Assembly: GCA_026122225.1 (NCBI GenBank)
Contig: JANEZZ010002879.1
Location: 186,001-250,000 of the forward strand
Origin: Heloderma charlesbogerti
Lineage: Eukaryota; Chordata; Lepidosauria; Squamata; Helodermatidae
Length of the DNA: 64,000 bases
Direction of reading: 5' to 3'
Both the position numbers and the translations under genes were made by a program. This document shows positions 1,526 through 61,820 of the stretch, in pieces. Under the pieces are notes generated by a model. That model searched no databases. It was not told the origin of the DNA and was given only the letters and a program-made list of their open reading frames with translations. How positions within the stretch are numbered: the stretch's first letter is position 1; each line of letters begins with the position of its first letter.

Positions 1526-2055
1526 TAGGGATGTTAGAGAATTCCACCATCAACTCCAGTGAAGCTGGATTCTTTAGAATCTGGCCCCCAGAGTCTGTGG
1601 CAGAATGGAGCAATCCCCCTCGCCTCCCCGCGAAATTTATCTGGGGTGGAGCCTACCTTTGTCAGCCATCCACTGTCCTGCGAATGGCTGCCCCGGTCTG
1701 CGGCCACCATTTCCTCTCTACTTTAGCTGTGATAGGCTACGTAAGTATTTATGTAGCCTATCACAGCTAATGCAGGGATGCCATTTGCATCCCTGCCTTT
1801 TGCTGTGATAGGCTATGTAAATATATACGTAGCCTATCACGGCTAACGCAGGGACACAAAAGGTGGCTGCCATTTGCGGCTGCAGCCCAGCAGCGGATGG
1901 AAGTCCAGTTGCGGGTGGCCCCGGGCGGCGGTGGCTCTGTGGGCTCCCTGCAGAGCAGAGCTGGCCGGGAAGGATTCCAGGGGGGAGGGACAGATTGCCT
2001 CCCCCCCCCAGCAGATGGCCCCAGAGGAACGGGGTAAGTAATCCATATACCCCTA
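1526..2055 (-). mobile_element. Palindromic hAT-like element, copy A (short form)
   Basis: Starts TAGGGATGTTAGAG (END-2 type) and ends with the decayed END-1 sequence ACCCCTA. It is flanked by a perfect 8-bp duplication, CACCTGAT, at 1518-1525 and 2056-2063. Only two P1 palindromes remain (about 1727-1767 and 1802-1844); the P2 pair and central block are absent, so this is an internally deleted form of 530 bp. The GC-rich stretch at 1860-2035 leads to an outward donor GTAAGT at 2034-2039. The END-2 donor has decayed. Strand here means the END-1 to END-2 direction. Transposition by a hAT enzyme supplied elsewhere is inferred from the 8-bp duplication and the ends. Confidence 0.88.
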
Positions 2056-3457: not shown

Positions 3458-3880
3458 ATCTCTACACCAGCCTAAAATCCTGCATTTAAAATGGGACTGA
3501 GTGCTTCCGCTTAAGATGCAGGATCACAACTGACTCCCTTTACATTCACTTCCTTTCCTTCCCCCCTCCCCCCTCCCCTCCCCCCTCCCCTCCCCCCTCC
3601 CCTCCCCTCCCCTCCTCCCTCTCCCTGTACCTGAGTCTTCCACATCTTTCATTGATCTTGCTCCTCTTCTTGCCACTTTAACTCTTTTCATGGAGGAAAC
3701 TGAAGCAGAACACAATGGGGTATTGGATAGATCATTATCTGCAATCTATTTAAAAACAGAACAAAGGACATTTAGTGCAGGAGATGCCTTGGAGGGTCAT
3801 GGCATCATGTAAAGAGCCCACAAACTTCCTTGAAGGTGCAATCTCAATCTCAGGATAAAAACTCCTTGTGAAGGAGCCCA
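3458..3880 (+). repeat. Dispersed repeat R, copy 1 (uninterrupted)
   Basis: Runs from 'tctacaccagcctaaaatc' to 'gtgaaggagccca'. It aligns by eye over its full length with 60481-61820, where the same sequence is split by copy M. The segment 'agagcccacaaac|ttccttgaag' near 3826 is the unoccupied version of the M insertion point. No coding content is seen. It is probably a non-autonomous DNA element of unknown class. Confidence 0.7.
3553..3626 (+). repeat. Polypyrimidine tract (CCCCTCCC)n
   Basis: About 70 bases almost entirely C and T with a CCCTCCC-like unit, inside repeat R. The second R copy has only a short version at 60580-60610, so the tract expanded after dispersal. The complementary strand is G-rich. 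Confidence 0.85.
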
Positions 3881-8661: not shown

Positions 8662-8798
8662 AATGGCTGACAAGCAGCTGCATGGACAGGTGTGGCCTGT
8701 TTCCTGGGTACCTTATGACCAATCAAGCAGATGAAAAGCCTGAAGGTGGTTCTGAGTGTTACATTTGCATGTAGTAGCTGTTCACTGGAACTCCCAAC

Positions 8799-9836
8799 AT
8801 GAGGTCCAAAGAGGTGTCCATGAGAGTGAAGGAGGCCATCATTAGGCCAAGGAAACAAAATAAACCCATCAGAGAGATAGCAAAAACCGTGGGAGTGGCC
8901 AATACAACAGTTTGGAACATCCTGAAAAAGAAGGAATTAACTGGCAAGCTCAGCAACAGCAAAAGGCCTGGAAGACCATGGACGACAACTAAAGTGGATG
9001 ACCGCAGAATTCTGCTCATGGTGAAGAGGAACTCTTTCACAACATCTAGCCAGGTCAAGAACACTCTTCCAGAGGTAGGCATGTCATTGTCAACATCTGC
9101 AGTCAAGAGACAGCTTTATGAATGTAAATACAGAGGCTTCACAACAAGGTGCAAACCACTGGTAATGCTCAAGAACAGACAGGCCAGATTAGCCTTTGCC
9201 AGCAAACACCTAAAAAAGCCTGCCCAGTTCTGGAATAAGATTCTTTAGACTGATGAGACCAAGATTAACTTGTACCAGAATGATGGGAAGGGAAAAGTAT
9301 GGAGAAGGAAAGCAACAGCTCATGATCCAGAGCATTCTACATCAACTGTCAAACATGGTGGAGGCAGTGTTATGGCATGGGCACGTATGGCTGCCAATGG
9401 AACCAGGTCACTGGTGTTTATTGTTGACCTGATTGCTGATAAAAGCAGCAGGATGCATTCTGAAGTGTATAGGGCTATACTTTCTGCTCAGATTCAGCCG
9501 AATCCTGCCAAATTGATAGGACGCCGCTTCATATTGCAGATGGATAATGACCCCAAGCATACAGCAAAAGCTACCCAAAAGTTTCTCAAGGCAAAGAAGT
9601 GGGATGTTCTTCAATGGCCAAGTCAGTCACCTGATCTCCACCCAATAGAGCATGCTTTTCACTTACTGAAGACAAGACTGAAGGCAGAAAGACCCACAAA
9701 CAAGCAGCAGCTGAAGGCAGCTGCAGTAAAGGCCTGGCAAAGCATCTCAAGGGAGGAAACTCAGCATTTGGTCATGTCCATGGGTTTCAAACTTCAGGCA
9801 GTCACTGACTGCAAAGGATTTTCATCCAGGTCTTAA
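8799..9836 (+). pseudogene. Tc1-like transposase with one in-frame stop
   Basis: Start ATG at 8799 and end at 9836 give 345 codons, full length for Tc1 transposases (about 340). The N-terminal part has a paired-like helix-turn-helix (IREIAKTVGVANTTVWNIL) and an AT-hook-like GRP segment (RPGRPW). The catalytic part has DETK just after the stop, the glycine box HGGGSVMAWARM, the second Asp in QMDNDPKH and the Glu in PDLHPIEHAF. The spacing from the first Asp of MDND to that Glu is 34 residues, i.e. DD34E. The only break is TAG at 9246-9248, where family members usually have Trp before the Asp-Glu-Thr motif. Upstream and downstream are in the same frame without indels. It is inactive as it stands, but only recently so. 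Confidence 0.93.
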
Positions 9837-11625: not shown

Positions 11626-12402
11626 TAGGGATGTCAGAGAATTCCATGATGGATCTCAGTGAGGCCGAATGCCAGTGCATTTGGCCCCCCAAAATCCATC
11701 GCGGAACGGCCCGCCACCCCCCCGCTCCCCGCGGATCCCCCCTGGGACAAGACTTATCTGGGGCAGATGTTTCGGGCGGCGGCAGCTCCAGCAGTGGCTA
11801 CGATGGTGGTGGCAGCCACTGGTTTTCTAACTGGCTGCGGCGGCCGCCATTTGCATTCTGTGTTTTTTTCTTTTTTTCCCCCCATAGACGTGATAGGCTA
11901 TGTAAAGATGTACGTAGCCTATCACGTCTGGGTAAAAAAAAACAACACGTATGCAAATGGCGGTGGCTACGGCCACCGCCATTTGCATTCCTTATTTTTC
12001 GCGGACTTAGTCTATGTCAATATTTACATAGACTAAGACAAAGAAAAGAAAGGGGAACGCAAATAGCACCCCCTATGCTATTTGCGTTCCCCTTTCTTTT
12101 CTTCATCTTACTCTACGTAAATATTTACATAGACTAAGATGGCGAAAAATAAGGAACACAAATGGTGGTGGCCGTAGCCGCTGCCACTTGTGTACGTGTT
12201 TCTTTTTTTTTTTTACCCAGAGCCCTCTGCGGCCAGAAATCCAGCTGTGGATGGCCCTGGCCTGGGCCTGGTGGGCTGCTCTGCAGAGCTGCCACGAAGC
12301 ACAGCCAGCCGTTGAGGATTCCAAGGGGGAGGACCGGATCGCCTCCCCCCCCCCACCATGAACAGAATCTGCGAAAAGGTAAGTGACTTTTGTACATCCC
12401 TA
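11626..12402 (-). mobile_element. Palindromic hAT-like element, copy B
   Basis: 777 bp with END-2 at the left (TAGGGATGTCAGAGAATTC) and END-1 at the right. The perfect duplication CTCTACAC lies at 11618-11625 and 12403-12410 and fits the hAT preference nTnnnnAn. Copies 3 and 5 of BovB show the unoccupied site 'cgactctacacatgg'. The core uses TAGTCTACGTAAA-type palindromes and ATGGCGGC hairpins. The END-2 donor is mutated (GATAAGT on the minus strand near 11755); the END-1 donor at 12379-12384 is intact. Confidence 0.95.
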
Positions 12403-13750: not shown

Positions 13751-14452
13751 TAGGGATGTCAGAGAATTCCACCACGGATCTCGGTGAGGCCTAATGCCAG
13801 TGCATTCGGCCCCCGGAAATCTGTGGTGGAACAGCCTACCCCCCCGCCCCCCCACGGATCCCTCCCAGGACGAGACTTACCTGGGGTGGAATTTCTGGGC
13901 GGCGGCAGCTCCGGCGGGAGCTCCGGAGGCAGCTGGTCTTCCAACTGGCTACCACCGCCGCCATTTGCAGTTTTGTCATTTTTTTTTTTTACAAAGACAT
14001 GATAGGCTACTTAAAGATTTATGTAAATATTTACATAGGCTAAAATGGCAAATCAAAAAGGGACGAAAATAGTGCCCGCTACGCTATTTGCGTTCCCCTT
14101 TATTTTCGCCGTAATAGTCTATGTAAATATTTACGTAGACTAAGACGGTGAAAAATAAGGAACACAAATGGCAGCGGCCGTAGCTGCCGCTATTTGCGTA
14201 CGTGGTTTGTTTGCTTGGTTTTTTTACCCAGAGCCCTCAGTGGCCGGAAATCCGGCTGCGGACAGCTCTGGCCTGGGCCTTGCCGGCTGCTCCGCGGATC
14301 CGCCGTGGAGCACAGCCGGCCATCGAGGATTCCGGGGGGGAGGAACGGATCGCCTTCCCCCCCATTGAGGATTCTGGGGGGAAGGACGGAATGCCTCCCC
14401 TCCCACCATGAACATAATCCGTGGAAAGGTAAGTGACTTTCGTACATCCCTA
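13751..14452 (-). mobile_element. Palindromic hAT-like element, copy C
   Basis: 702 bp, END-2 left and END-1 right, inserted in the BovB RT motif encoding IGKGVRQG. The perfect duplication GAAAGGAG lies at 13743-13750 and 14453-14460, and the empty site is intact in BovB copies 1, 3 and 5. Donors are at 13875-13880 (minus) and 14429-14434 (plus). The END-1 side again has CACCATGAAC followed by a short frame to the donor. It has the same orientation and length class as copy B, 1.3 kb away in the same BovB. Confidence 0.95.
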
Positions 14453-18762: not shown

Positions 18763-19580
18763 TAGGGATGTACGAAAGTCACTTTCCTGAACCTGAAAGT
18801 TGATTCGTGGGGGGGGAGGCATTCTGTCCCTCACCCCGAAATTCTGGCTGGGGGGGAGGTGCCCCGTCCCTCCCCCCAAAAAATTCTGGCCGGAGGGGAG
18901 GCGCCCCATCCCTCCCCAAAAAAAATTCTGGCCAGGGGGAGGCGCCCCGTCCCTCCAGCCATGAATCCTGTCCTGCCGGGACGCAAATGGCGGCAGCCGT
19001 AGCCACCGCCGTTTGAGTCCCTGCAGTCAGCCGTGATAGGTTACCTGAATGTTTACGTAGCCTATCACGGCTGAGTGAAACAAACAAACAAACCACAAAT
19101 AGCGTTCCCCTTATTTTCGCCATAGTCTACGTCAATGTTTACATAGACTACACGTGCCAAAATAAGGAACGCAAATGGCGGCGCCCATGGGCACCGCCAT
19201 TTGCGTACGCGCGGTTTGTTTGTTTGTTTTCACTCAGCCGTGATAGGCTACATAAACATTTACATAGCCTATCACGGTGTTTTTAAAAAATCTAGCCGTG
19301 ATAGGCTACGTAAATCTTTACGTAGCCTATCACGTTTTGTTTTGCTTTTTTAACTTGGAAATGGCGGCAGCGGCAGCCGGTCGGAAGACCAGCCGCCGCA
19401 GCCGCCACTGCCGAACCGCCACCGGAGCCGCCGCCGCCGCCAGGGACATTCACACAAGGTAAGTCCCATCTCGGGGGGGGGAGGGCGGGGGGCAGACTGT
19501 TTCTCCACCAATTTTGGGGGGCTGAATGCGCTGGCATTCAGCCTCCCCAAGATTTGTGGAGAAATTCTCTGACATCCCTA
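18763..19580 (+). mobile_element. Palindromic hAT-like element, copy D
   Basis: 818 bp, END-1 left and END-2 right, with the perfect duplication CCCAAATG at 18755-18762 and 19581-19588. The END-1 donor has decayed (ACTTTC in place of ACTTAC). The END-2 side keeps the full cassette: ATGGCGGCAGCGGCAGCC at 19361, an open GC-rich frame and the donor GTAAGT at 19459-19464. Four GGGGGAGGC-type polypurine repeats follow END-1. Confidence 0.94.
19361..19464 (+). promoter_or_regulatory. Candidate outward first exon with 5' splice donor (copy D)
   Basis: Starts in 'gaaATGGCGGCAGC', which is both a YY1-type motif and a start codon. It encodes MAAAAAGRKTSRRSRH and onward without a stop to CAAG|GTAAGT at 19459. 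The equivalent frames in copies H, I, K and L begin the same way (MA-rich, then G-R/Q/L-K-T/A). It is short and low in complexity, and no protein relative is recognised. Use as an exon is inference. Confidence 0.4.
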
Positions 19581-29224: not shown

Positions 29225-29456
29225 GCACCAGAACAGGGCTCTAAAGGACATTGGAAGCTGCCTTCTACCAGGTCAAAGTATTTATCTATCTTGCCCCACA
29301 TTATTGACTCTGACTCATGGTAGTTCTCCAGAGTCTCCACCAGAGAAAGGTCTTTCCCATCATTCACTGCTTGGTCCTTTTAACTGAAGATTCCAGGGAT
29401 TGAACCTAGGGCCTTCTGCATGTAAAGCAGATGCTGTACCACTGAGATAGCCCCCC
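29225..29456 (-). mobile_element. tRNA-derived SINE
   Basis: Read on the minus strand, the head has an A-box-like TATCTCAGTGGTACAG and a B box GGTTCAATCC spaced as in tRNA. It is followed by 'ctggaatcttcagttaaaagg' and a body ending 'gaaggcagcttcca'. A 5' tRNA-like portion with this body is a widespread reptilian SINE. It is not a functional tRNA gene; the head lacks a consistent acceptor stem. Confidence 0.82.
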
Positions 29457-31201: not shown

Positions 31202-33175
31202 ATGAGCCAGGGCAAATTGGATGTGGTTATTGGGGAGATGTCGAGATTAGATATAGACATTTTGGGTGTCAGTGAACTGAAATGGACTGGAATGGGCCAC
31301 TTCATATCAAATGACCACCAGATCTACTATTGTGGACAAGAGGACCATAGAAGAAATGGAGTAGCCTTCATAATTAATAATAAATTGGCTAAAGCAGTGC
31401 TTGGATATGATCCAAAAAATGACAGAATGATCTCAATTCGAATTCAGGGTAAGCCATTTAACATCACAGTGATCCAAATATATGCCCCAACCACAGATGC
31501 TGAAGAAGCAGAAGTAGATCAGTTCTATGAGGATCTGCAGCACCTACTGGATAGCGCGCCCAAAAAAGATGTTATTTTCATTACAGGAGACTGGAATGCT
31601 AAGGTGGGTAGTCAAACGACACCTGGAATTACAGGCAAGCATGGTCTGGGAGAACAAAATGAAGCGGGACATAGGCTGATAGAATTTTGCCAAGACAACT
31701 CACTGTGCATAACAAACACTCTCTTCCAACAACCTAAGAGACAACTTTATACATGGACTTCACCAGATGGTCGACACCGAAATAGGGATGGGGGAGAATT
31801 TCTCCCCGAAACTTCGGGGGGCCGAGTGCCAACGCATTTGGTCCTCCAAAGGTTCGGGGAGAAATTCTCCGCCCCCCCGCCCCCCCCGGGATGGGACTTA
31901 CCTTTCACGAATGTCGCTCCCGGCGGCGGATCCCGGCGGCGGTTCGGCAGGTCTTCGTCAGGGGCGGGGGCGGCAGCCGGTCTTTCGACCGGCTGCCGCC
32001 GCCGCCATTACAAGAAAAGTAAAAAAACAACAACACGCCCCTGTGATACGCTACGTAACGATTAACATACCCTATCACGGCTAGATTTGCAAAGTCAGCT
32101 GTGATAGGCTACGTTAATCGTCACGTAGCCTATCACGGGTGACTTTAAAAAAAAAAAAAGCGCGTACGCTAATGGCGGCCCCCATAGGGAGCCGCCATTC
32201 ACGTTCCTTATTTGGTCCCTGTAGTCTACGTAAAGATTTATGTAGACTATGGCGAAAATAAGGGCAATGCTATTTCCGTTGAGGTATACTCTCACCCTAC
32301 CTATTCAACCTGTATGCAGAACACATCATGCAACGTGCTGGGCTTGATGAAGCCAAGGCTGGAGTTAAAATCGCTGGAAGAAACATTAACAATCTCCGAT
32401 ATGCAGATGATACCACTTTGATGGCTGAAAGCGAGGAGGAGCTGAGGAACCTCATGACGAAGGTGAAAGAAGAAAGTGCAAAAGCTGGGTTTCAGACAGT
32501 TAAACCTAAAAAAAACCAAGATTATGGCAACCAGCTTGATTGATAACTGGCAAATAGAGGGAGAAAACGTGGAGGCAGTGACAGACTTTGTCTTTCTAGG
32601 CACAAAGATTACTGCAGACGCTGACTGCAGCCAGGAAATCAGAAGACGTTTAATTCTTGGGAGGACAGCAATGACAAATCTTGATAAAATAGTTAAGAGC
32701 AAAGACATCACACTGACAACAAAGGTCCGCATAGTTAAAGCAATGGTATACCCCGTAGTAACCTATGGCTGCGAGAACTGGACCATAAGGAAGGCTGAGC
32801 AAAGGAAGATAGATGCTTTTGAACTGTGGTGCTGGAGGAGAATTCTGAGAGTGCCTTGGACTTCAAGATGATCAAACAAGTCCATACTCCAGGAAATCAA
32901 GACAGACTGCTCACTTGAGGGAATGATATGAAAGGCAAAACTGAAGTACTTTGGCCACATAATGAGAAGGCAGGATACCCTGGAGAAGATGCTGATGCTA
33001 GGGAAAGTGGAAGGCAAAAGGAAGAGGGGCCGACAAAGGGCAAGATGGATGGATGATATTCTGGAGGTGACAGACTCGACCTTGGGGGAGCTGGGGGTGG
33101 CGACAACTGACAGGAAGCTCTGGCGTGGTGGGCTGGTCCATGAAGTCATGAAGAGTTGGAAGCAACTGACCGAGT
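31202..33175 (+). pseudogene. BovB endonuclease-RT of the divergent lineage, deleted
   Basis: The endonuclease (31202-31782) is open with VSELKWTGMGHF and TGDWNAKVGSQ. At 31783 element E interrupts. After about 32284 the sequence resumes inside RT motif 4 (LTLPIQPVCRTHHA region in a shifted frame), then LRYADDTTLMAESEEEL near 32394, a frameshift near 32500, and MVYPVVTYGCENWT with DAFELWCWRRILRVPW up to a TGA at 32869. The linker and first half of RT are gone, so it is inactive. Confidence 0.88.
31783..32280 (-). mobile_element. Palindromic hAT-like element, copy E (truncated)
   Basis: END-2 starts at 31783 (TAGGGATGGGGGAGAATTTC); the left target is CACCGAAA at 31775-31782. The element contains the minus-strand cassette (donor at 31896-31901), two P1 palindromes, one ATGGCGGC hairpin and one P2. 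It then stops at the centre of symmetry, where BovB RT sequence begins. The second half and END-1 were deleted together with about 0.9 kb of BovB. Confidence 0.9.
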
Positions 33176-34245: not shown

Positions 34246-35011
34246 TAGGGATGTACGAAAGTCACTTACCTTTTCGCAGGTGTGATTCGCGGTGGGGGGG
34301 AGGCGCTCCGTCCCTCCCCCCGGAATCCTCCCTGGCCGGCTCTGCTCCACGGCGGCTCTGCAGAGCCACCGGGCTGCTGCAGCCGCAAATGGCAGCCACC
34401 ATAACGGCCGCCATTTGCGTCCTTCCAGGCTGCCATGATAGGCTATGTAAGTATTTACATAGCCTATCACAGCAAAGAGCAGGAATGCAAACGGCAGCTG
34501 CTACGCCATTTGCGCTGCTGCTCTTTTCGTGATAGGCTACGTAAGTATTTATGTAGCCTGTCACGATAAAGGCAGCCATGCAAATGGCACAGTGGTCACC
34601 GTTTGCATGGCTGCCTTTACCATAAATACTTACGTAGCCTATTACGTAGCCTATCACGTAAATACTTACGTAGCCTATCACAAAAAGAGCAGCGGCGCAA
34701 TGGCATAGCAGCCGCCGTTTGCGTCCCTGCTCTTTGCCGTGATAGGCTACATAAATACTTACGTAGCCTATCACGGCAGCCTGGCAGGACGCAAATGGTG
34801 GCTGCTACGGTGGCCACCATTTGCGGCCGCAGCAGCCAGCTGGAAGACCAGCCACTGCTCCTGCCCCCGCTGCCCCAGGTAAGTTTCATTCCGGGGGGGA
34901 TTCCGCGGGGTGGCGGGGGGTGGGAGGCCATTCTGGCATGGGTTTTGGGGGGTCAAATGCCAGTGCATTCGACCTCACTGAAATCCGTGGCGGAATTCTC
35001 CGCCATTCCTA
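34246..35011 (+). mobile_element. Palindromic hAT-like element, copy F
   Basis: 766 bp, END-1 left and END-2 right (ending CCATTCCTA). The duplication TTTTTTTC lies at 34238-34245 and 35012-35019. Its core has P1 palindromes only, with GTAAGTATTTAC loops, and one junction at 34620-34680 where three P1 arms abut. Donors are at 34264-34269 (minus) and 34879-34884 (plus). The insertion lies in a block whose right end ('gatttgcacatcccta', 35190) looks like another hAT MITE. Confidence 0.93.
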
Positions 35012-35599: not shown

Positions 35600-36055
35600 A
35601 ACAACAAATAGGAATGTGGGAATCAGCAGAACTTGATCTTGCCAAAGGCCAAAGCTCTCTGAATTCCATCTTGAAGCTTGTTCTGACTCGAATCCACATC
35701 ATATTGCAAACGGGGTTTTTTTTCTTTCCACATAAAAATCTGCATATTTTTGTGCATTTTTTTCCAAATGTATGCATCAATTGTCCACATCTTTGAAATC
35801 TATGGATTTTTCTCCCATTGATTAAAGTGTATTTCTGTGTATTTTTCAAAAGTACCCATTTTTTCATGCACATTTTTAAATGTACACATGCTGTTGAACA
35901 CACGGGGGGTGTGCAAATCACTTTGCAAGCTCAGGAATGTATGGACTTTGATTGCAGATTGTGTCTGAGTCTGTGTTTGATTCGAAAAGTGTGAACTGGT
36001 TAAATTCTGCTCAAAAAGGAACTGAAATGAATTTCTCTAACATTGATATAAAGAG
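35600..36055 (+). mobile_element. hAT-type MITE (family 3), uninterrupted copy
   Basis: 'taggaatgtgggaatcagc...ctctctgaattccatcttgaagc...tgcacatttttaaatgtacacatgctgttgaac...gaactgaaatgaatttctctaac'. The same order of blocks occurs at 42700-44160 (split by copy H) and, inverted and cut by the window edge, at 63890-64000. No coding content. Confidence 0.65.
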
Positions 36056-37796: not shown

Positions 37797-40700
37797 TCAC
37801 TTGAGCCCATTATTCCATGTCCTGCACTCTGGGATGATCAAGAAGAGATCCTGGCCTTCTTCTCTGTGACAACCTTTCAAGTACTTGAAGAGTGCTATCA
37901 TATCTCCCCTCAGTCTTCTCTTCTCAAGGCTAAACATGCCCAGTTCTTTCAGTCTCTCTTCATAGGGCTTTGTTTCCAGTCCCCTGATCATCTTTGCTGC
38001 CCTCCTCTGAACCCTCTCCAGTTTGTCTGCATCCTTCTTAAAGTATGGTGCCCAGAACTGGACACAATACTCCAGATGAGGCCTAACCAGTGCTGAGTAG
38101 AGGGGAACTAGTACTTCCCGGGATTTGGAAGCGATGCTTCTATGAATGCAGCCCAAAAGAGCATTGGCCTTTTTTGCAGCCACATCACATTGTTGGCTCA
38201 TATTCAGCTTGTGATAGACAACAATTCCAAGATCCTTCTTGCTCGTAGTGTGGTTGAGCCATGTATCCCCCATCTTGTAACTGTGCATTTGGTTTCTTTT
38301 TCCTAGGTGCAGAACTTGGCATTTATCCCTATTCAATGTCATTCTGTTGTTTTCTGCCCAGCGCTCCAGTCTATCCAGATCACTTTGAATTTTGTTTCTG
38401 TCTTCCAAAGTATTAGCTATCCCTCCCAATTTGGTGTCATCTGCAAATTTGATCAGCATTCCCTGCATCTCCTCCTCCAAGTCATTAATAAAAATGTTGA
38501 AGAGCTCTGGGCCCAGGACTGAGCCCTGCGGTACCCCACTTGTTACCTCTCCCCAGTTTGAGAAGGTCCCATTGATAGGCACTCTTTGAGTCCAATTCTG
38601 TAGCCAACTGTGGATCCACCGGATCGTTGTTTCATTTGGCCACTTTGAGCTAGGGATGTATGAAAGGGACTTACCTTGTCCCACAGCTTTTTTCGCGGTG
38701 GGGGGGAGGCGCTTCGGTTCTCCCCCCGAAGTTCATGCGAGGGGGGGGAGGCTTCCCGCCTCGCCCGGCCAAAATTCGGGCCGGGCGGGAGGCGCCCCAT
38801 CCCTCGCCGGCAAAAGTCAGGCCTGGTAGAAGCGCCCCGTCTACCCAGCCGCAAAAAAACCAACAAAAAACCCCACCCCCGTGATAGGCTACGTAACGAT
38901 TAACGTAGCCTATCATGGCTAGATTTGCAAAGTCAGCCATGATAGGCTACGTTAATCGTCACGTAGCCTATCTAGGGATGGCAGAGAATTTCTCAACGAA
39001 TTTTGGGGGGGCTGAGCGATGAGGCATTCGGCCCCCCGAAAGTGTTGGGGAAAATCTCCACCGGCCCCCTGCCCCCCCCGGGATAGGACTTACCTTCAGC
39101 GAATGTCCCTCTCGGCAGCGGGCCCTGGCGGCAGTTCGGGGGCGGTTCGTCGGGGGCAGGGGCGGCGGCCGGTCTCCTGACCAGCTGCCGCCACCGCCAT
39201 TACAAAATAAAAAAGTAAACACACACACACACACCCGTGATAGGCTACGTGACGATTTACGTAGCCTATCACGGCTAGATTTCCAAAGTCAGCCGTGATA
39301 GGCTATGTAAATCATCACGTAGCCTATCACGGGTGACTTTGGGGGAAAAAAAAAAGCACGTACGTAAATGGCGGCAGCCCATGGGCGCCGCTATTTGTGT
39401 TCCTTATTTTGGCATGTCTAGTCTATGTAAATATTTACGTAGACTATGGCAAAAATAAGGGCAACGCAAATAGCGTTCCCTTATTTTCGCCGTACTCTAC
39501 CTAAATCTTTACATAGACTACAGGGACCAAATGAGGAACGCAAATGGCGGCTCCCTATGGGGGCCGCCATTTGCGTACATGCTTTTTTTTTTTTTTTTCA
39601 AAGTCACCCGTGATAGGTTACGTGACGATTTACGTAGCCTATCACGGCTGACTTTGGAGATGTAGCCGTGATAGGCTACGTTAATTGTTACGTAGCCTAT
39701 CACGGGGGTATTTTTTATTTTAACTTTCCTTGTAATGGCGGCGGCGGCAGCTGGTCTAAAGACCGGCTGCCGCCCCAGCCCCTGAAGAAGACCCGACGAA
39801 CCACCGCCAGGACCTGCCTCCGGGAGGGACATTCGTGAAAGGTAAGTCCCATCTCGAGGGTGGCGGGGGGTGGCAGGGGGTGGCGGGGGGTGGTGGAGAA
39901 TTTCACTGCCAATTTCGGGGGGCCGAATGCATTGGAGCTCGGCCCCCCAAAGTTTCAGGGAGAAATTCTCCCCCATCCCTACTTTGAGCTAGTTTGCTCA
40001 TCAGGGTATCATGGGGCACTTTGTTGAAAGCTTTGCTGAAGTCGAGGTATATGATTTCTACAGCATTCCCACGGTCTACAAGGGAGGTTACTTGATCAAA
40101 AAATGAGATCAGATTTGTCTGGCAGGACTTGTTTTTGACAAATCCATGTTGGCTTTGAGTAATCACGGCATTGTTGTCTAGGTGCTTCCAGATGGATTCC
40201 TTTATCATCTGCTCCAGAATTTTCCCAGGGATTGATGTCAGACTGACTGGCCTGTAGTTCCCAGGTTCCTCCTTTTTACCCTTTTTGAAGGTAGGGACAA
40301 CGTTAGCCCTCCTCCAGTCATCTGGCACTTCCCCAGTCCTCCATGATTTCTCAAAGAGAATAGACAGTGGTTCTGAGAGTTCTTCTGCCAGTTCCTTTAT
40401 GACTCTAGGATGCAGTTCTTCTGGCCCTGGAGATTTGAACGCATTCAAAGTCATTAGGTGTTCCTTGACCATATGCCTATCGATCTCAAGCTGCAATCCT
40501 GCCCCTTCTGCCTGTACTTCACCTTTGCCAGGGGGGTCATAGACCCTCTTTTGGGAGAAGACTGAGCCAAAGTAGGAATTGAGCACCTCTGCCTTTTCTT
40601 TGGCATCTGTTATCGTTTTGCCATCCTTATTTAATAGCTGAACCACCATTTATTTCCTTTGCCTTTTACTATGCACATAGCTGAAGAAAGCCTTTTTGTT

Positions 40701-42690: not shown

Positions 42691-42753
42691 CCAGCTGTTG
42701 ATGGGGATGTGCAAATCAGAAAAAAGTGAGCTTGCCAAAGTTCTCTGAATTCT

Positions 42754-43842
42754 AGGGGTGGACGAAAGTCACTTACCTGTTGTTGAAGGACGTTCGCGGT
42801 GGGGGGGAGGCGCTTCACTGCTCCCCCCGCGAAGTTCAGGCCGGGGGGGAGGCTTCCCGCCTCGCCCGGCTGAAATTCAGGCCGGGGGGGAGGCTTCCCG
42901 CCTCGTCCGGCCGAAATTCAGGCTGGGGAGGAGGCGCCTCGCCTCACCCGGCCGCGAACGCGAAAGTAAAAAAAAAAAACACCCCCTGATAGGCTACGTG
43001 ATGATTCACGTAGCCTATCACGGCTAGATCTGCAAAGTCAGCCATGATAGGCTACGTGAATCGTCACGTAGCCTATCACGGGTGACTTTAAAAAAAAAAC
43101 ACCGCCCCCTGACAGGCTACGTGACGATTCACGTAGCCTATCACGGCTAGATCTGCAAAGTCAGCCGTGATAGGCTAAGTGAATCGTCACGTAGCCTATC
43201 ACGGGTGACTTAAAAAAAAATAAAAGCGCGTACGCGAATGGCGGCCCCCATAGGGAGCCGCCATTCGCGTTCCTTATTTAGTCGCTGTAGTCTACGTAAA
43301 TTTTTACGTAGACTACGGCGAAAATAAGGGCAATGCAAATAGCGTTGCCCTTATTTTCGCCGTAGTCTATGTAAACATTTACGTAGACTACAGCGACTAA
43401 ATAAGGAACGGGAATGGCGGCTCTCTATGGGGGCCGCCATTATCCGTACACTCTTTTTTTTTTTTTTTCAAATTCACCCGTGATAGGCTACGTGACGATT
43501 CACGTAGCCTATCACGGCTGACTTTGCAGATCTAGTCGTGATAGGCTACGTGAATCGTCACGTAGCCTATCAGGGGGCTTTTTTTTTTTTCTTTGATTGC
43601 AATGGCGGCAGCGGCAGCCGGTCAAAAGACCGGCTGCCGCTCCCGCCTCACTCAAACACCCGCCGAACCGCCGGCCGGACCAGCCACCGGGAGGGACATT
43701 CGGTGAAGGTAAGTCCCGTCCCGCGGGGGGTGCGGGGTGCGGGGGGGGTGCGGAGGATTTCTCCCCGAACCTTGTTCAGGGGGCCGAACACGTTGGCACT
43801 CGCCCCCCCGAAGTTTCGGGGAGAAATTCTCCGCCATCCCTA
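42754..43842 (+). mobile_element. Palindromic hAT-like element, copy H (most complete core)
   Basis: 1089 bp. In order: END-1 with donor at 42772-42777 (minus); three GGGGGGAGGC polypurine repeats; P1 at 42986-43022, 43041-43081, 43110-43146 and 43164-43205; ATGGCGGC hairpin 43226-43272; P2 43287-43320; central block about 43321-43357; P2 43358-43395; second hairpin 43410-43450; P1 43478-43518 and 43536-43572; ATGGCGGCAGCGG cassette from 43602; donor 43709-43714; END-2. The left target is CTGAATTC at 42746-42753; the right copy has lost two bases (CAATTC). The left pair of P1 units is duplicated compared with I, J and K. Confidence 0.94.
43602..43714 (+). promoter_or_regulatory. Outward ATGGCGGC cassette and splice donor (copy H)
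   Basis: Starts in 'gcaATGGCGGCAGCGGC'. The frame MAAAAAGQKTGCRSR runs to a TGA four bases before the donor. Here the frame closes just before GTAAGT, so a conserved protein is doubtful even though the donor (GAAG|GTAAGT) is perfect. Confidence 0.4.
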
Positions 43843-47952: not shown

Positions 47953-48932
47953 TAGGGGTGGACGAAAGTCATTTACCTTTTCTCGCAGCTTGTTCGCGGT
48001 GGGGGGGAGCGCTTCGCTGCTCCCCCCGCGAAGTTCAGGCCAGGGGGGGAGGCTTCCCTTCTCGCCCGGCCGAAATTCAGGCCGGGGAGGAGGCTTCCCG
48101 CCTCGCCCGGGCGAAATTCAGGCCGGGGAGGAGGCTTCCCGCCTCGCCCGGCCGCGAACATGAAAGTTAAAAACAAAACAAAAACACATCCCCTGATAGG
48201 CTACGTGACGATTCACGTAGCCTATCATGGCTAGATCTGGAAAGTCAGCCGTGATAGGCTACGTGAATCATCACGTAGCCTATCACGGGTGACTTTAAAA
48301 AAAAAAAAAAAAAGCGCGCACGCGAATGGCGGCCCCCATAGGGAGCCGCCATTCGCGTTCCTTATTTAGTTGCTGTCGTCTACGTAAATGTTTACGTAGA
48401 CTACGGCGAAAATAAGGGCAACGCAAATAGCGTTGCCCTTATTTCCGCCGTAGTCTACGTAAACATTTACGTAGACGACAGCCACCAAATAAGGAATGGG
48501 AATGGCGGCTCCCTATGGGGGCCGCCATTATCCGTACACACTTTTTTTTCTTTTTTTTTAAAGTCACCCAGGATAGGCTATGTGACGATTGATGTAGCCT
48601 ATCACGGCTGACTTTGCAAATCTAGCCGTGATAGGCTACGTGAATCGTCACGTAGCCTATCAGGGGACTTTTTTTTTTTTTCTTTCATTGCAATGGCGGG
48701 GGCGGCAGCCGGTCGAAAGGCCGGCTGCCGCTCCCGCCCCGCTCGAACACCGGACGAACCGCCAGCCGGACCCGCTGCCGGGAGGGACATTCAGGGAAGG
48801 TAAGTCCTGTCCCGGGGGGGTGCGGGGTGTGGGGGGGGTGCGGAGGATTTCTCACCGAAACTTGTTCGGGGGGCCGAACACGTTGGCACTTGGCCCCCCG
48901 AAGTTTCGGGGAGAAATTCTCCGCCATCCCTA
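47953..48932 (+). mobile_element. Palindromic hAT-like element, copy I
   Basis: 980 bp, END-1 left (TAGGGGTGGACGAAAGTCAT) and END-2 right. The left target is TAACTCAG (47945-47952). After END-2 the BovB leader resumes at 'aagccataagc', so the right duplication plus two bases are missing. The END-1 donor is weakened (GTAAAT); the END-2 donor at 48800-48805 is intact and follows the ATGGCGGGGGCGG cassette. Confidence 0.93.
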
Positions 48933-48955: not shown

Positions 48956-49835
48956 TAGGGGTGGACGAAAGTCCCTTACCTGTCCTCGAAGGATGTTCGC
49001 GGTGGGGGGGAGGCACTTCACTGCTCCCCCCGCGAAGTTCAGGCCGGGGAGGAGGCTTCCCGCCTCGCCCGGCTGCGAACGCGAAAGTTAAAAAAAAAAA
49101 CAAAACCCTGATAGGCTACGTGACGATTCACGTAGCCTATCATGGCTAGATCTGCAAAGTCAGCCATGATAGGCTACGTCAATCGTCACGTAGCCTATCA
49201 CGGGTGACTAAAAAAAAAAAAAAAAGCGCATATGCTAATGGCGGCCCCCATAGGGAGCCTCCATTCACGTTCCTTATTTAGTCGCTGTACTCTACGTAAA
49301 TGTTTATGTAGACTACGGTGAAAATAAGGGCAACGCAAATAGCATTGCCCTTATTTTCACCGTAGTCTACGTAAACATTTACGTAGACTACAGCGACCAA
49401 ATAAGGAATGGGAACGGCGGCTCCCTATGGGGGCCGCCATTATCCGTACACGCTTTTTTTTTTTTTTTAAAGTCACCCGTGATAGGCTACGTGACAATTG
49501 ACGTAGCCTATCATGGCTGACTTTGCAAATCTAGCCGTGATAGGCTACGTGAATTGTCACGTAGCCTATCAGGGGGCTCTTTTTTTTTTTCTTTGATTGT
49601 AACGTCGGCGGTGGCAGCCGGTCAAAAGACCAGCTGCCGCTCCTGCCCCGCTTGAACACCCGCCGAACCGACAGCCGGACCCGCCACCAGGAGGGACATT
49701 CGGTGAAGGTAAGTCCCGTCCCGGGGGGGGGGTGGGGGGGTTTCGGAGGATTTCTCCCCGAAACTTGTTCGGGGGGCCGAACATGTTGGCACTCGGCCCC
49801 CCGAAGTTTCGGGGAGAAATTCTCCACCAACCCTA
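48956..49835 (+). mobile_element. Palindromic hAT-like element, copy J
   Basis: 880 bp in the same orientation as I, with duplication GCCATGCA / GCCGTGCA (48948-48955, 49836-49843; one difference). Copies 2 and 3 of BovB show the empty site 'gctatgccgtgcaggg'. The END-1 donor reads GTAAGG; the END-2 donor is intact at 49709-49714. The cassette start has mutated from ATGG to ACGT. Confidence 0.94.
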
Positions 49836-51030: not shown

Positions 51031-51088
51031 AGAGTGAAGTCAAGTGGCCTTAGGAAGCATTAGTAACAACTAGGGATGTACGAATGTC

Positions 51089-51094
51089 ACTTAC
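51089..51094 (-). promoter_or_regulatory. Outward 5' splice donor, END-1 of copy K
   Basis: On the minus strand AAAAG|GTAAGT, 18 bases from the element terminus and directed to the left flank. Confidence 0.5.
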
Positions 51095-51800
51095 CTTTTC
51101 GCAACATGGCTTCTCGGTGGGGGGGAGGCGCTTCGCTTTCCCCCCCGAAGTTCAGGCGAAGGGGGGGAGGCTTCCCGCCTCGCCCGGATGAAATTCAGGC
51201 TGGTGGGGAGGCTTCCTGCCTCGCCCGGCCAAAATTCAGACCGGGGAGAAGCACCCCGTCTCCCCGGCCGCGAAACAAAAAGTAAAAAAAAAAAAAGACC
51301 CCGTGATAGGCTACATGATGATTTACGTAGCCTGTCATGGCTAGATTTCCAAAGTCCGCCATGATAGGCTACATAAATCGTCACGTAGCCTATCACGGGT
51401 GACTTTGAAAAAAGAAAAAAAAAGCGCATACACAAATGGCGGCAGCCCATGGGCGCCGCCATTTGCGTTCCTTATTTTGGCACGTCTAGTCTATGTAAAG
51501 ATTTACGTAGACTACGGCGAAAATAAGGGCAACGCAAATAGCGTGCCTTTATTTTTGCCGTAGTCTACATAAATCTTTACGTAGACTAGACGTGCCAAAA
51601 TAAGGAACGCAAATGGCGGTGCCCATGGGCCGCTGCCATTTGCGTACGCGCTTTTTTTTTCTTTTTTCAAAGTCACCCGTGATAGGCTACGTGACGATTT
51701 ATGTAGCCTATCATGGCTGACTTTGGAAATCTAGCCGTGATAGGCTACGTAAATTCTTACATAGCCTATCATGGGTGTGTGTTGTTTTTTTTTACTTTAG

Positions 51801-53507
51801 GTGTTTTTTTTTTGCAATGGCGGCAGCGGCAGCCGGTCAGGAGACCGGCCGCCGCCCCCACCCACAACGAACCGCTGCCGAAACGCCGCTGGGACCCGCC
51901 GCCGGGAGGGACATTCACCAAAGGTAAGTCCCGTCCCAGGGGGGGCGGGGGGGTGGAGAATTTCACCGCCGATTTCGGGGGGCCGAATGCATTGGCACTC
52001 AGCCCCCCAAAGGTTCGGGAAGAAATTCTCCACCATCCCTAGTAACAACAAACCTAGCGGAGATGACAGTATTCCAGCTGAGCTATTTAAAATCCTAAAA
52101 GATGATGTTGTTAAAGTGCTGCATTCAATATGCCAACAAATGTGGAACTCTCAACAATGGCCGCAAGACTGGAAAAGGTCAGTTTCCATTCCAATTCCAA
52201 AGAAGGGCAATGCCAAAGAGTGTTCAAACTACCGCACAATTGCACTCATTTCACATGCCAGCAAGGCGATGCTCAAAATCCTACAAGCTAGGCTTCAGCA
52301 GTATGCGAACAGAGAACTACCGGAAGTACAAGTGGGGTTTCAAAGAGGCAGAGGAACTAGAGATCAAATCGCCAACTTTCGCTGGATCATGGAGAAAGCA
52401 AGAGAATTCCAGAAAAACATCTATTTCTGCTTCATTGACAACGCTAAAGCCTTTGATTGTGTGGATCACAACAAACTGTGGCAAATTCTTAAAGTGATTG
52501 GAGTACCAGACCACCTTACCTGTCTCCTGAGAAACCTGTGCGAGGGTCAAGAAGCAACAGTAAGAACCAGACATGGAACAACCAAGTGGTTCAAAATTGG
52601 GAAAGGAGTACGACAAGGCTGCATATTGTCACCCTGCTTATTTAACTTATATGCAGAGGACATCATGAGAAACACCGGGTTGGATGAATCACAGGTCGGA
52701 ATTAAGATTGCTGGGAGAATTATCAACAACCTCCGATATGCAGACGATACCACCCTAATGGCAGAAAGCGAAGAGGATCTAAAGAGCCTCTTGTTGAGGG
52801 TGAAAGAGGAGAGTGCAAAAGCTGGTTTGAAACTCAACATTAAAAAAACTAAGATCATGGCATCTGGCCCCATCATTTCCTGGCATATAGAAGGGGAAGA
52901 AATGGAAGCAGTGACAGATTTTACTTTCTTGGGCTCCAAGATCACTGCAGATGGTGACTGTAGCCATGAAATTAAAAGACGCTTGCTCCTTGGGAGGAAA
53001 GCTATGGCAAATCTAGACAGCATAGTAAGAAGCAGAGACATCACCTTGCCAACAAAGGTCCTTCTAATCAAAGCTATGGTTCTCCTAGTAGTAATGTATG
53101 GCTGTGAGAGTTGGACTATAAGGAAGGCTGAGCGCCAAAGAATTGATGCTTTCGAACTGTGGTGCTGGAGAATACTCTTACAAGTCCCCTGGACTGCAAG
53201 GAGGTCAAATCAGTCCATCCTAAAGGAAATCAACCCTGACTGCTCCTTGGAAGGACAGATACTGAAGCTGAAGCTCAAATATTTTGGCCACCTAATGCGA
53301 AGACAAAACTCTCTGGAAAAGACCCTGATGCTGGGAAAGACTGAAGGCAAAAGGAGAAGGGGACGGCAGAGGATGAGATGGCTAGATAGTATCACCGATG
53401 CAATGAATATGAACTTGAGCACACTCTGGGAGAGAGCACAGGACAGGGGGGCCTGGCGTGCTATGGTCCATGGGGTCACGAAGAGTCGGACACGACTGAA
53501 GGACTGA
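51801..53507 (+). CDS. Chimeric frame: element K leader fused to complete BovB reverse transcriptase
   Basis: 568 codons without a stop. Residues 1-80 are from element K: MFFFCNGGSGSRSGD, a Gly/Pro/Arg-rich stretch, then the END-2 segment. From residue 81 (NNKPSGDDS) it is BovB: IPKKGNAKECSNYRTIAL, the first catalytic Asp in FIDNAKAFDCVDH near 210, RQGCILSPCLFNLYAED, the LRYADDTTLMAES box near 312, MYGCESWT and the normal C terminus RTRLKD. It is the only BovB RT here with all palm motifs uninterrupted. It lacks the endonuclease. The join at 52041 is element END-2 to target duplication without a frame change. An alternative start is ATG at 51817 in another frame. Expression is unknown; a neutral coincidence is quite possible. 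Confidence 0.7.
   Translation: MFFFCNGGSGSRSGDRPPPPPTTNRCRNAAGTRRREGHSPKVSPVPGGAGGWRISPPISGGRMHWHSAPQRFGKKFSTIPSNNKPSGDDSIPAELFKILKDDVVKVLHSICQQMWNSQQWPQDWKRSVSIPIPKKGNAKECSNYRTIALISHASKAMLKILQARLQQYANRELPEVQVGFQRGRGTRDQIANFRWIMEKAREFQKNIYFCFIDNAKAFDCVDHNKLWQILKVIGVPDHLTCLLRNLCEGQEATVRTRHGTTKWFKIGKGVRQGCILSPCLFNLYAEDIMRNTGLDESQVGIKIAGRIINNLRYADDTTLMAESEEDLKSLLLRVKEESAKAGLKLNIKKTKIMASGPIISWHIEGEEMEAVTDFTFLGSKITADGDCSHEIKRRLLLGRKAMANLDSIVRSRDITLPTKVLLIKAMVLLVVMYGCESWTIRKAERQRIDAFELWCWRILLQVPWTARRSNQSILKEINPDCSLEGQILKLKLKYFGHLMRRQNSLEKTLMLGKTEGKRRRGRQRMRWLDSITDAMNMNLSTLWERAQDRGAWRAMVHGVTKSRTRLKD
51924..51929 (+). promoter_or_regulatory. Outward 5' splice donor, END-2 of copy K
   Basis: CAAAG|GTAAGT after the cassette beginning ATGGCGGCAGCGGCAGCC at 51817. 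It lies inside the chimeric frame, so a spliced transcript would skip the rest of END-2. Confidence 0.5.
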
Positions 53508-54389: not shown

Positions 54390-56061
54390 TAGGGATGTAC
54401 GAAACACTTACCTGGTTTCATCCAGGGACATCCGCAGTGGAGGGGAGGCGCTCTGTCCCTCCCCCTGAAATCCTCGACAGGGGGGAGGCGATCCATTCTT
54501 CCCTCCCCCTGGAATTCTGCCCAGCTGGCTCCGCTCCGCCGCCAGGCTGCGGAGCTGCCGGCCGGGCCAACCCGCAGCAGGGCCTCCAGCCACTGCCGGG
54601 CTGCTGCGGACACAAATGGCGTCCTGAGTAGGGGACGCCATTTGCATCCCTATGGTAGCCCATGATAGGCTACGTGAATATTTACGTAGCCTATGACGGC
54701 AAGCAAAAAAAAAAAAAAGCATATGCAAATGGCGGCTACGGCAGCCAGCATTTGTGGCTTCCCTTTTGTTCCTCGCCATTTTAGACTATGTAAATATTTA
54801 CGTAGGCTATTACAGCGAGAAAAAAAGGAACGCAAATAGCGCCCACTATGCCATTTGCGTTCCCCCTTTTTTTTTGCCATAATAGCTTATGTAAATATTT
54901 ACGTCAGCTAAAACAGCGAAAAAAAAGGAACGCAAATGGCAGCCGCCATAACCACCGCCATTTGCGTATGCTGGGTTTTTTTACGTAAATAATTACGTAA
55001 CCTATCACGGCCTCTGCAGGGATGCAAATGGTGTTCCTGCTTTAGCCGTGATAGGCTACATAATTATTTATGTAGCCTATCACAGTTATGATGAGGAAGC
55101 GAATGTCAGATGTACAAAAGTCACTTACCTTTTGCGGATTATGTTTATGGTGGGAGGGGAGGCGTTCTGTCCCTCCCCCCAGAATTCTCGATGGGGGAGG
55201 GAGGCGATCCGTTCCTCCCCCCTGGAATCCTCCAAGGCTGGCTGTGCTCCGCAGCAGCTCCGTGGAGCAGCCGGCTAGGCCCAGCCAGGCCAGAGCCTTC
55301 CGCAGCTGGATTTCCTGCCGCAGAGGGCTCTGGGGGGAAAAAAACAAACAAACTGTGTATGCAAATGGCGGCGGCTATGGCCGCCGCCGTTTGCATTCCT
55401 TATTTTTGCCGTCTGAATCTACGTAAATATTTATGTAGACTATGACGGCGAAAATCAAGGGGAAGGCAAATAGTGTAGCGGGCACTATTTGCCTCCCTTT
55501 TTGATTCACCATTTTAGCCTACGTAAATATTTACGTAGGCTAAAACGGTGAATTAAAAAGGGACTCAAATAGCGCCCGCTACGCTATTTGCGTTCCCCTT
55601 TATTTTCGCCGTCATAGTCTATGTAAATATTTACGTAGATTAAGACGGCAAAAATAAGGAACACAAATGGCGGCGGCCGTAGCCACCGCCATTTGCGTAC
55701 GTGGTGTTTTGGGTTTTTTCAACCCAGCCATGATAGGGTACATAAATCTTTACATAGCCTATCACGTGGTGTGTGTTTTTTTAACCCAGCCATGATAGGC
55801 TATGTAAATCTTTACGTAGCCTACCACATCGTTTTTTGTTTTTGTTTTTTTTACAAGACAAATGGCGGTGGCAGCAGCCGGTCTGAAGACCAGCTACCGC
55901 AGCCGCCGCCACCCGGAAGATTCGCCCCAGGTAAGTCTCATCCTGGGGGGGATCCGCGGGGGGGCAGGGGGGGCAGGCTGTTCCGCCACAGATTTCGGGG
56001 GGCCGAATGTACTGGCATTCGGCCTCACTGAGATCCATGGCGGAATTCTCTGACATCCCTA
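54390..56061 (+). mobile_element. Palindromic hAT-like element, copy L (partial tandem dimer)
   Basis: 1672 bp. END-1 at 54390 is followed by a core, then a second END-1 in the same direction near 55104 (decayed terminus GTCAGATGTACAAAAGTCAC), a second core and END-2 at 56061. The left target is TTCCTCTC; the right flank reads TTCTTCCTCT, an imperfect match. Donors are at 54406-54411 and 55123-55128 (minus) and 55931-55936 (plus). The END-2 cassette is ATGGCGGTGGCAGCAGCC from 55863, with an open frame through CCCCAG|GTAAGT. Confidence 0.9.
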
Positions 56062-60480: not shown

Positions 60481-61820
60481 CATTTCTACACCAGCCTAAA
60501 ATCTTGCATTTAAAATGGGGCTTTCTGCTTCCGTTTTAAATGCAGGATCACAACTGACTCCCTTTATGCGCACTCCCTTTCCTTCCTCCCCCTCTTCCCT
60601 CCTTCTCCCAATATCTGAGTCTTCCATGATCTTTCATTGATCTTGCTCCTCTTCTTGCCACTTTAACTCTTTTGATGGCGGAAACTGAAGCGGAACACAA
60701 TGGGGTAATTTGATAGCTCATTATCTGCGATCTATTTAAAAACAGAACAAAGGGCATTTAGTGCAGGAGGGTCACAGCGTTGTGTAAAGAGCCCACAAAC
60801 TAGGGATGGGGGAGAATTTGTCCCCGAAACTTCAGGGGCCGAGTGCCAACGCATTCGGTCCTCCAAAGGTTGTTTGGGGAGAAATTCTCTGCCCCCCCCC
60901 CCGGGATGGAACTTACCTTTCACGAATGTCCCTCCCGGCGGCGGGTCCCGGCAGTGGTTCGGCAGGTCTTCGTCAGGGGCGGGGGCGGCAGCCGGTCTTT
61001 CGACCGGCTGCCGCCACCGCCATTACAAGAAAAGTAAAAAAAAAAACCCGCCCCTGTGATAGGCTATGTAACGATTTACGTAGCCTATCACGACTAGATC
61101 TGCAAAGTCACCCATGATAGGCTACGTTAATCGTCACGTAGCCTATCACGGGTGACTTTAAAAAAAAAAAAAGCGCGTACGACTAATGGCGGCCCCCATA
61201 GGGAGCCACCATTCGCGTTCCTTATTTGGTCGCTGTAGTCTAAGTAAAGATTTACGTAGACTACGGCGAAAATAAGGAAAACGCAAATAGCGTTGCCCTT
61301 ATTTTTGCCGTAGTCTACGTAAATCTTTATGTTGACTACAGGGACCAAATAAGGAACACGAATGGCGGCTCCCTATGGGGGCCACCATTTGCATATGCAC
61401 TTTTTTTTTTTCTTTTCACAGTCACCCGTGATAGGCTACATGATGATTAACATAGCCTATCATGGCTGACTTTGCAGATCTAGCCGTGATAGGCTACATT
61501 AATCGTTACGTAGCCTATCACAGGGGTGTTTTTTGTTTTGTTTTTTCTTTTGAAGTTCGCGGCCGGGGAGACGGGGCACTTCTCCCTGGCCTGAATTTCG
61601 GCCGGGCGAGGCGGGAAGCCTCCCCCCTGGCCTGAATTTTGGCCGGGCGAGGAGGGAAGCCTCCCCCCCCAGCCTGAAGTTCGGGGGGAGCAGCAAAGCA
61701 CCTCCCCCCCACCGCGAAGCAAGCTGCGAGACCAGGTAAGTGACTTTCGTGCATCCCTACCACAAACGTCCGTGAAGGAGCAATCTCAATCACCGGATAA
61801 AAGTCTGGTGTGAAGGACCC
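60481..61820 (+). repeat. Dispersed repeat R, copy 2 (split by copy M)
   Basis: 60481-60800 and 61760-61820 together reproduce 3458-3880, including 'cacaactgactcccttta' and 'aacagaacaaagggcatttagtgcagg'. The comparison confirms that M is a clean insertion. Confidence 0.8.
60801..61759 (-). mobile_element. Palindromic hAT-like element, copy M
   Basis: 959 bp, END-2 left and END-1 right, with the perfect duplication CCACAAAC at 60793-60800 and 61760-61767. Donors are at 60911-60916 (minus) and 61736-61741 (plus). Core: two P1, hairpin, P2, centre, P2, hairpin, two P1, then CCTCCCCCC polypyrimidine repeats. On the minus strand the cassette frame from ATGGCGGTGGCGG closes at a TGA well before the donor. 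Confidence 0.95.

Follow-up and report, generated by a model that had tools for sequence, protein, structure and literature searches.

How a mobile element comes to carry a palindrome made of smaller palindromes, and whether such symmetry is only inherited or is renewed, are the questions raised by copy H, an element in a 64,000-nucleotide stretch of the Heloderma charlesbogerti genome (hereafter, the window). Palindromic interiors of transposons are usually taken either as accidents or as selected structures. In the present case, very many copies of one element let the origin of a palindrome be tested by counting.

The sequence of copy H starts with TAGGGGTGGACG and finishes with CCATCCCTA, and its parts are listed in Table 1 together with the other copies found in the window. 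The smallest inverted pairs in H, which form the P1, N, and GC hairpins, have arms of 18-20 bp, and the P1-P1 blocks have arms of 43 bp. Longer inverted arms comprise 100 bp (43237-43336 with 43342-43441, 95% identity), 131 bp (42969-43099 with 43460-43590, 95%), and 134 bp (43092-43225 with 43457-43590, 93%). A self-comparison of H gave best anti-diagonal scores of 21, 37, and 104 for small, medium, and large spans (a division of our own), while the maxima in 25 dinucleotide shuffles were 10, 12, and 12, respectively. Furthermore, the segment 42969-43590 was predicted to fold, as single-stranded DNA, with an energy of -324.5 kcal/mol, compared with -78.7 kcal/mol for 20 shuffled sequences. 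The three-scale symmetry claimed for H in the preliminary description, that is, palindromes at about 40, about 100, and 500-600 bp, was therefore recovered well above shuffled sequences, and two of the checks proposed there, self-comparison and DNA fold prediction, agreed with it. A splice-donor-like motif, GGTAAGT, was also noticed in H at 42771-42777 and 43708-43714; it points outward near both ends in four of the six copies with positions (H, K, L, and F) and near the right end only in I and J.

Table 1. Copies of the family in the window and component parts of copy H. Positions refer to the window; copy letters other than H are labels of this analysis and are not those of the preliminary description. 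TSD, target duplication.
Feature	Position	Strand	Remarks
Copy A	1526..2055	-	TSD CACCTGAT/CACCTGAT; TSD and last base of each end assigned by eye
Copy B, inside LINE	11626..12402	-	TSD CTCTACAC/CTCTACAC, by eye
Copy C, inside LINE	13751..14452	-	TSD GAAAGGAG (+ strand); empty site in other LINE copies
Copy E	18763..19580	+	TSD CCCAAATG
Copy M, right half only	31783..32281	-	Broken a few bases beyond the palindrome centre
Copy G	34246..35011	+	TSD TTTTTTTC
Copy F, recombinant	38651..39981	+	TSD CTTTGAGC; left end followed by a K-like right half in inverted orientation and an L/M-like right half
Copy H, full element	42753..43842	+	1090 bp
H, left end	42753..42778	+	TAGGGGTGGACGAAAGTCACTTACCT; AAGT-C-ACTT 14-22 bp from tip
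H, left-end 41-bp subterminal tandem repeat, 3.7 copies	42801..42952	+	
H, extra left P1-P1 block (123-bp tandem duplication)	42983..43082	+	
H, left P1-P1 block	43106..43205	+	Two P1 hairpins; block itself palindromic
H, left N hairpin	43232..43270	+	ATGGCGGC arms
H, P2-centre-P2 palindrome	43279..43399	+	58-bp arms, 55 pairs
H, right N hairpin	43408..43441	+	
H, right P1-P1 block	43477..43576	+	Inverted relative to left block
H, third hairpin, GC-rich	43604..43647	+	Close to right end
H, right end	43811..43842	+	...GGAGAAATTCTCCGCCATCCCTA
Copy I, inside LINE	47953..48932	+	TSD searched, none found
Copy J, inside LINE	48956..49835	+	TSD 7/8
Copy K (K-type subfamily)	51071..52041	+	TSD GTAACAAC; empty site in other LINE copies
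Copy N, composite	54390..56061	+	Second left end near 55108; no in-register TSD
Copy L	60801..61759	-	TSD CCACAAAC (+ strand); empty-site match at 3617-3879

Thirteen copies of the family, twelve of them with both termini, were found in the window, which are the numbers counted before. Together they cover 18.7% of it. The P1 string GATAGGCTA occurs in all 13 copies and nowhere in the other 52 kb, and the observed/expected ratio of CpG is 0.43-1.18 in the copies vs 0.20 in the remaining window. Eight of the 13 (A, B, C, E, F, G, K, and L) are flanked by perfect 8-bp TSDs, and J by one matching at 7/8 positions. As for the others, the TSD of H is out of register, which fits a 2-bp deletion, none was found for I, N fails, and M is without a left end. 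Empty sites were obtained for three insertions, those of C and K in uninterrupted LINE copies within the window and that of L in the match at 3617-3879. The LINEs hosting C and K are presumably BovB-like. The joined flanks of H gave a weak spanning match (70%) at 35608-35802, which was not counted. The left tip reads TAGGGRTG in 11 of the 12 copies having a left end (A differs), and the right tip reads TAGGGATG in 11 of 13, with G and J one base off. A Pfam search of the eight open reading frames that overlap copies (8 of the 13) found no transposase domain in them; one of these frames overlaps a LINE endonuclease. By its ends, 8-bp TSDs, and empty sites, the family is a non-autonomous, Ac-like hAT element. 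This bears out the earlier assignment, made from hAT-type ends with 8-bp duplications, and perfect TSDs were present at 20 of 30 loci in the whole genome, H included (see below). Membership of the hAT superfamily is in itself ordinary and nothing new.

Several further observations were made in the window. The recombinant copy F was at first read as a transposed composite; this reading was dropped, since an account by K-like insertion and deletion fits better, in which an L/M-like copy would have received a K-like insertion in inverted orientation and then lost sequence by deletion between like-oriented arms. The motif AAAGTCA in the core was considered as a set of transposase sites and rejected as inconsistent across subfamilies. 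Within the CpG-rich copies, the N hairpins carry the string ATGGCGGC, which is absent from the rest of the window, and those of some copies carry ATGCAAAT, which has five further occurrences in non-family sequence; we take these to resemble YY1 and octamer sites. Two neighboring open frames at 8778-9836, the second with a DDE_3 domain, represent a transposase remnant, presumably Tc1-like, and the single Rfam match in the window was a tRNA at 29385-29456 (- strand), possibly a SINE.

A first look at the genome (2.302 Gb, 3246 contigs) yielded 10,842 candidates with H as the query and 13,462 with K, the two sets overlapping, and 40 places were scored for each query. On these first-look counts, the family has thousands of copies in the 2.3-Gb genome. 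The window holds seven H/K/L-type copies vs about 0.3 expected in 64 kb from at least 10,842 genome candidates, possibly a local cluster. A candidate pair of ends was obtained at 28 of 30 H-type loci (H included), one of the 28, L011, being spurious. Perfect 8-bp TSDs were present at 20 of the 30 and TSDs matching at 7/8 positions at four more, so that copies outside the window, whose TSDs the preliminary description had proposed to test, also show both termini and target duplications. Two of the latter four (L024 and L025) are one insertion: they lie about 11 kb apart on contig C3169 in opposite orientation with an identical imperfect TSD and represent an inverted segmental duplication. Four P1 units were counted in 26 of 28 loci, six in H (L001), and three in L011, the last because its left end was misplaced. 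H had been regarded as the copy that shows the plan best, and in this respect it turned out to be atypical. The usual copy, about 0.9-1 kb in size, consists of the left end, 41-bp repeats, P1-P1, N, P2-centre-P2, N, P1-P1, the GC hairpin, and the right end. Its large symmetric stretch is about 500 bp, and this core palindrome is formed by two arms of about 230 bp, each a chain of smaller palindromes. Classic MITEs are below about 600 bp, a size exceeded by 26 of the 28 H-type loci (888-979 bp) and by H, with L011 misplaced; the window copies likewise exceed 600 bp, apart from A (530 bp) and the truncated M. Exact P1 patterns found 0 relatives in viral contigs and 0 in prokaryote contigs.

A search of the genome for the hAT dimerisation domain gave 871 candidates, of which 150 were scored; 17 of these lie in open frames of 870-910 codons, and one frame of 883 codons also contains a BED finger just under the cut-off. 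Downstream ends were identifiable at 25 of 30 hAT-domain loci, and 16 of them read TAGGGATGTACG, a 12-bp sequence also present at five left ends of the family (C, E, G, K, and N). The sequence CTACAC follows 23 of the 25 identified ends of this abundant hAT family (L042-L071), suggesting insertion at CA repeats. Across the 30 loci and 14 further 3' regions, the ends found share 8-12 bp with the palindromic family and differ in the rest, and this hAT gene family is therefore a candidate helper, not a proven one. No hAT gene flanked by both family ends was found in the loci and 3' regions searched, nor was the left end of one of them (C1725) in about 8 kb upstream of its hAT domain. Two loci, L083 and L053, at first appeared to be a helper with family ends and proved to be family copies inserted in a hAT gene, the copy in L053 being broken off in the left P2.

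The two arms of the core were then compared site by site. In six cores from the window, 23 of 208 arm-arm pairs had changed on both sides vs 12.2 after shuffling (0 of 500 shuffles reached the observed value), and slid controls gave 1-4. Rare states common to both arms numbered 18 vs 1.1 expected, 11 of them in K. One of the six cores is that of copy F, whose left arm is not orthologous since F is recombinant, a caveat on this test. In the first 31 H-type elements, the arms at the 500-bp scale had 16 matched states vs 8.4 expected, a value reached by one of 1000 permutations; the mean correlation between arms reached only 0.042 at homologous columns, vs 0.017, and columns with a correlation above 0.4 made up 26% vs 5.2%. 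The sample was then 42 H-type elements, namely the 40 scored H-query places minus L025 (the same insertion as L024, and left out of the first 31 as well), plus I, J, and L083; K, L, and F were likewise left out, and L041 was dropped as it holds half a core only. Columns in A-runs were dropped, and the permutation counts also excluded columns whose fixed majorities differ between the arms. Minor states matched between the arms 62 times, vs 30.0 (sd 4.6, 0/1000) under permutation of whole arms, with 32 vs 10.5 in non-CpG and 30 vs 19.3 in CpG columns. Since permutation also breaks subfamily structure, homologous columns were compared with slid columns: homologous columns showed an excess co-occurrence of 27.8, and 120 slid offsets gave 0.84 (sd 2.8, max 10.6); the excess at homologous columns was 11.9 after removal of the top three. 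For K-type, 21 elements were compared, comprising K itself and 20 of the remaining 39 scored K-query places (the top of the inverted-match list); they gave 33 matched states vs 16.2 (0/2000) and an excess of 12.1 vs a slid maximum of 5.7. The arms of about 230 bp inside this mobile element evolve in concert, and the comparison of copies suggests that sequence is copied between the two halves, the symmetry being renewed and not just inherited.

We consider it probable that this is a trans-mobilised hAT family whose core grew by inverted duplication and whose source elements undergo patchy arm-to-arm conversion, with the hairpins as passengers. Mobilisation would be by cut and paste, with a BED-type hAT transposase from the same genome acting in trans, and the core may have grown as small palindromes were duplicated in inverted orientation. 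Occasionally, an arm of a source element would be overwritten by a copy of its partner, through gene conversion or template switching; the inverted arms might pair in a cruciform or when templates are switched during gap repair. Copying of this kind would let new copies leave with nearly symmetric cores, which then decay after insertion, while the small hairpins would ride along with the symmetry of the arms and would not be separately maintained. Arm conversion is read here from the pattern of matched sites, and pairing selection on the whole palindrome, or its repeated re-formation, would also match that pattern.

If the family were an ordinary hAT MITE with a palindrome that arose a single time and has since only been inherited, the arm matches would reflect mutation hotspots and differences in copy age, and part of these data could be explained. 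In H-type elements, identity is 93.1 between the arms within an element, 92.6 between opposite arms of different elements, and 95.6 between same-side arms; the corresponding values for K-type are 88.8, 88.2, and 92.3. Same-side identity thus exceeds within-element identity in both subfamilies, as expected for a single origin, and within-element identity is barely above that of opposite arms in different elements, so that any exchange must be partial and mostly older than the copies. Moreover, in the first set of 31 H-type elements, no linkage between the arms was seen at three C>T columns (55, 96, and 255), and 27 of the 33 K-type matches are C>T or G>A. With these transitions removed, K-type retained 6 matches vs 1.0 (7/5000), or vs 2.0 (162/5000) when divergence-matched, that is, when arms were exchanged only inside blocks of five elements of like divergence; K-type support for concerted arms is then weak. 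The same treatment of H-type left 48 matches vs 20.6 (0/5000), and the excess persisted under divergence matching (48 vs 32.4, max 46, 0/5000). Single-site linkage is strong at column 206 (changed in both arms in 14 elements, in the left arm alone in 1, in the right alone in 4, and in neither in 23; p=7.5e-7). Furthermore, between the H-type and K-type consensus arms (42 and 21 elements), 18 sites, a one-base insertion included, agree in both arms and differ between the subfamilies, whereas 0 agree by side and 0 are crossed (17 have one odd arm, 203 are the same). Given this evidence, a palindrome formed once and only inherited is rather unlikely.

Selection could alternatively preserve the hairpins themselves as DNA cruciforms or RNA structures, for example, as small-RNA precursors or a transposition signal. 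The extreme folding energy speaks for it, as does the fact that the N hairpins of K-type and H-type differ, yet each reads as a palindrome. In the first 31 H-type elements, the hairpins also gave 29 matched states vs 16.2 expected, but 28 of these trace to one compensated pair in the N hairpin, at which the left and right arms differ; the 100-bp blocks of these elements had 5 vs 2.5. In the six window cores, however, the small hairpins gave no excess of compensatory change: 3 of 160 pairs of the 40-bp hairpins had changed on both sides vs 6.2 expected, with 495 of 500 shuffles at least as high, and the 100-bp blocks had 4 of 90 vs 3.5. On these window copies, the visible hairpins are therefore not maintained as such, and we regard their selective maintenance as quite improbable. 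The scales thus separate: the arms are concerted, and the eye-catching hairpins are without compensatory excess on the window copies. All three symmetry levels of the preliminary description exist, but they are not equal, since in the six window cores concerted change of partners was seen only at the largest. A Foldback-like element, in which long inverted arms serve as the transposition ends, would account for the large arms and for the breaks near the centre in M and L053. The long arms are internal here, though, and the outer ends are short, distinct from each other, and TSD-flanked, which makes a Foldback-like origin extremely improbable. These breaks, together with the recombinant F, which is joined at the centre, show that breakage and recombination involve the core. 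A trans-mobilised hAT family with occasional arm-to-arm copying is the simplest and the preferred explanation.

The palindromes of Y chromosomes are likewise inverted arms kept alike by arm-to-arm copying, although they span many kb, as opposed to about 230 bp inside a mobile element. Foldback elements differ in that their long inverted repeats are the transposition ends, while the present family has internal arms and distinct ends. The maize Ac/Ds system, in the portion of the article available, has the TIR C/TAGGGATGAAA and an 8-bp TSD; the first 8 bp, TAGGGATG, and the TSD length are common to Ac and the family (PMC3260210). Ds elements (Ds1, Ds2, and Ds-like elements) are non-autonomous with variable interiors and subterminal repeats, like the copies here. 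The family differs from this system in being animal and in its core of nested palindromes, the string 'palindrom' occurring 0 times in the main text of PMC3260210. Hermes, an Ac-like hAT element of the house fly, has asymmetric ends, as does our family, and its AAG(T/C) subterminal sites are bound, with a quasi-palindromic pair at 11-27 of the left end, according to the part of the article accessible to us (PMC10368747). The AAGTCACTT at 14-22 bp in the left end of H is suggestive only. The target pattern of Hermes is nTnnnnAn, and in the family T occupies TSD position 2 in 42% of cases, over both strands of 32 TSDs. Hermes differs in encoding its own transposase, and only two subterminal pairs are palindromic in the account given in that portion (PMC10368747); the putative sites of the family are likenesses of sequence. 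Among vertebrates, hAT-6_XT also has a short non-autonomous derivative, hAT-6N1_XT_ESp, an amplified 800-bp region, for which the available part of the article describes no internal palindrome (PMC11008031). No description of a nested-palindrome hAT element was found among the PMC records listed, at the level of titles and the beginnings of abstracts, with available portions of PMC3260210, PMC3942097, PMC10368747, and PMC11008031 included. The earlier remark that such symmetry is not recognisable from described hAT MITEs stands within that literature, and the nested palindrome with concerted arms is new as far as checked there.

The absence of compensatory excess in the hairpins of the window copies, with so extreme a predicted fold, cautions against reading an RNA or cruciform function into folding energy by itself, and the family provides a natural system for measuring short-range conversion between inverted repeats. 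More tentatively, renewed symmetry might be a trait of the life cycle, in which excision or replication exposes the palindrome, arm is copied onto arm, and mutations are purged from the cores of elements that still move; this is possible but doubtful. If it were true, the nested palindrome would be a built-in repair template that helps a non-coding parasite resist decay.
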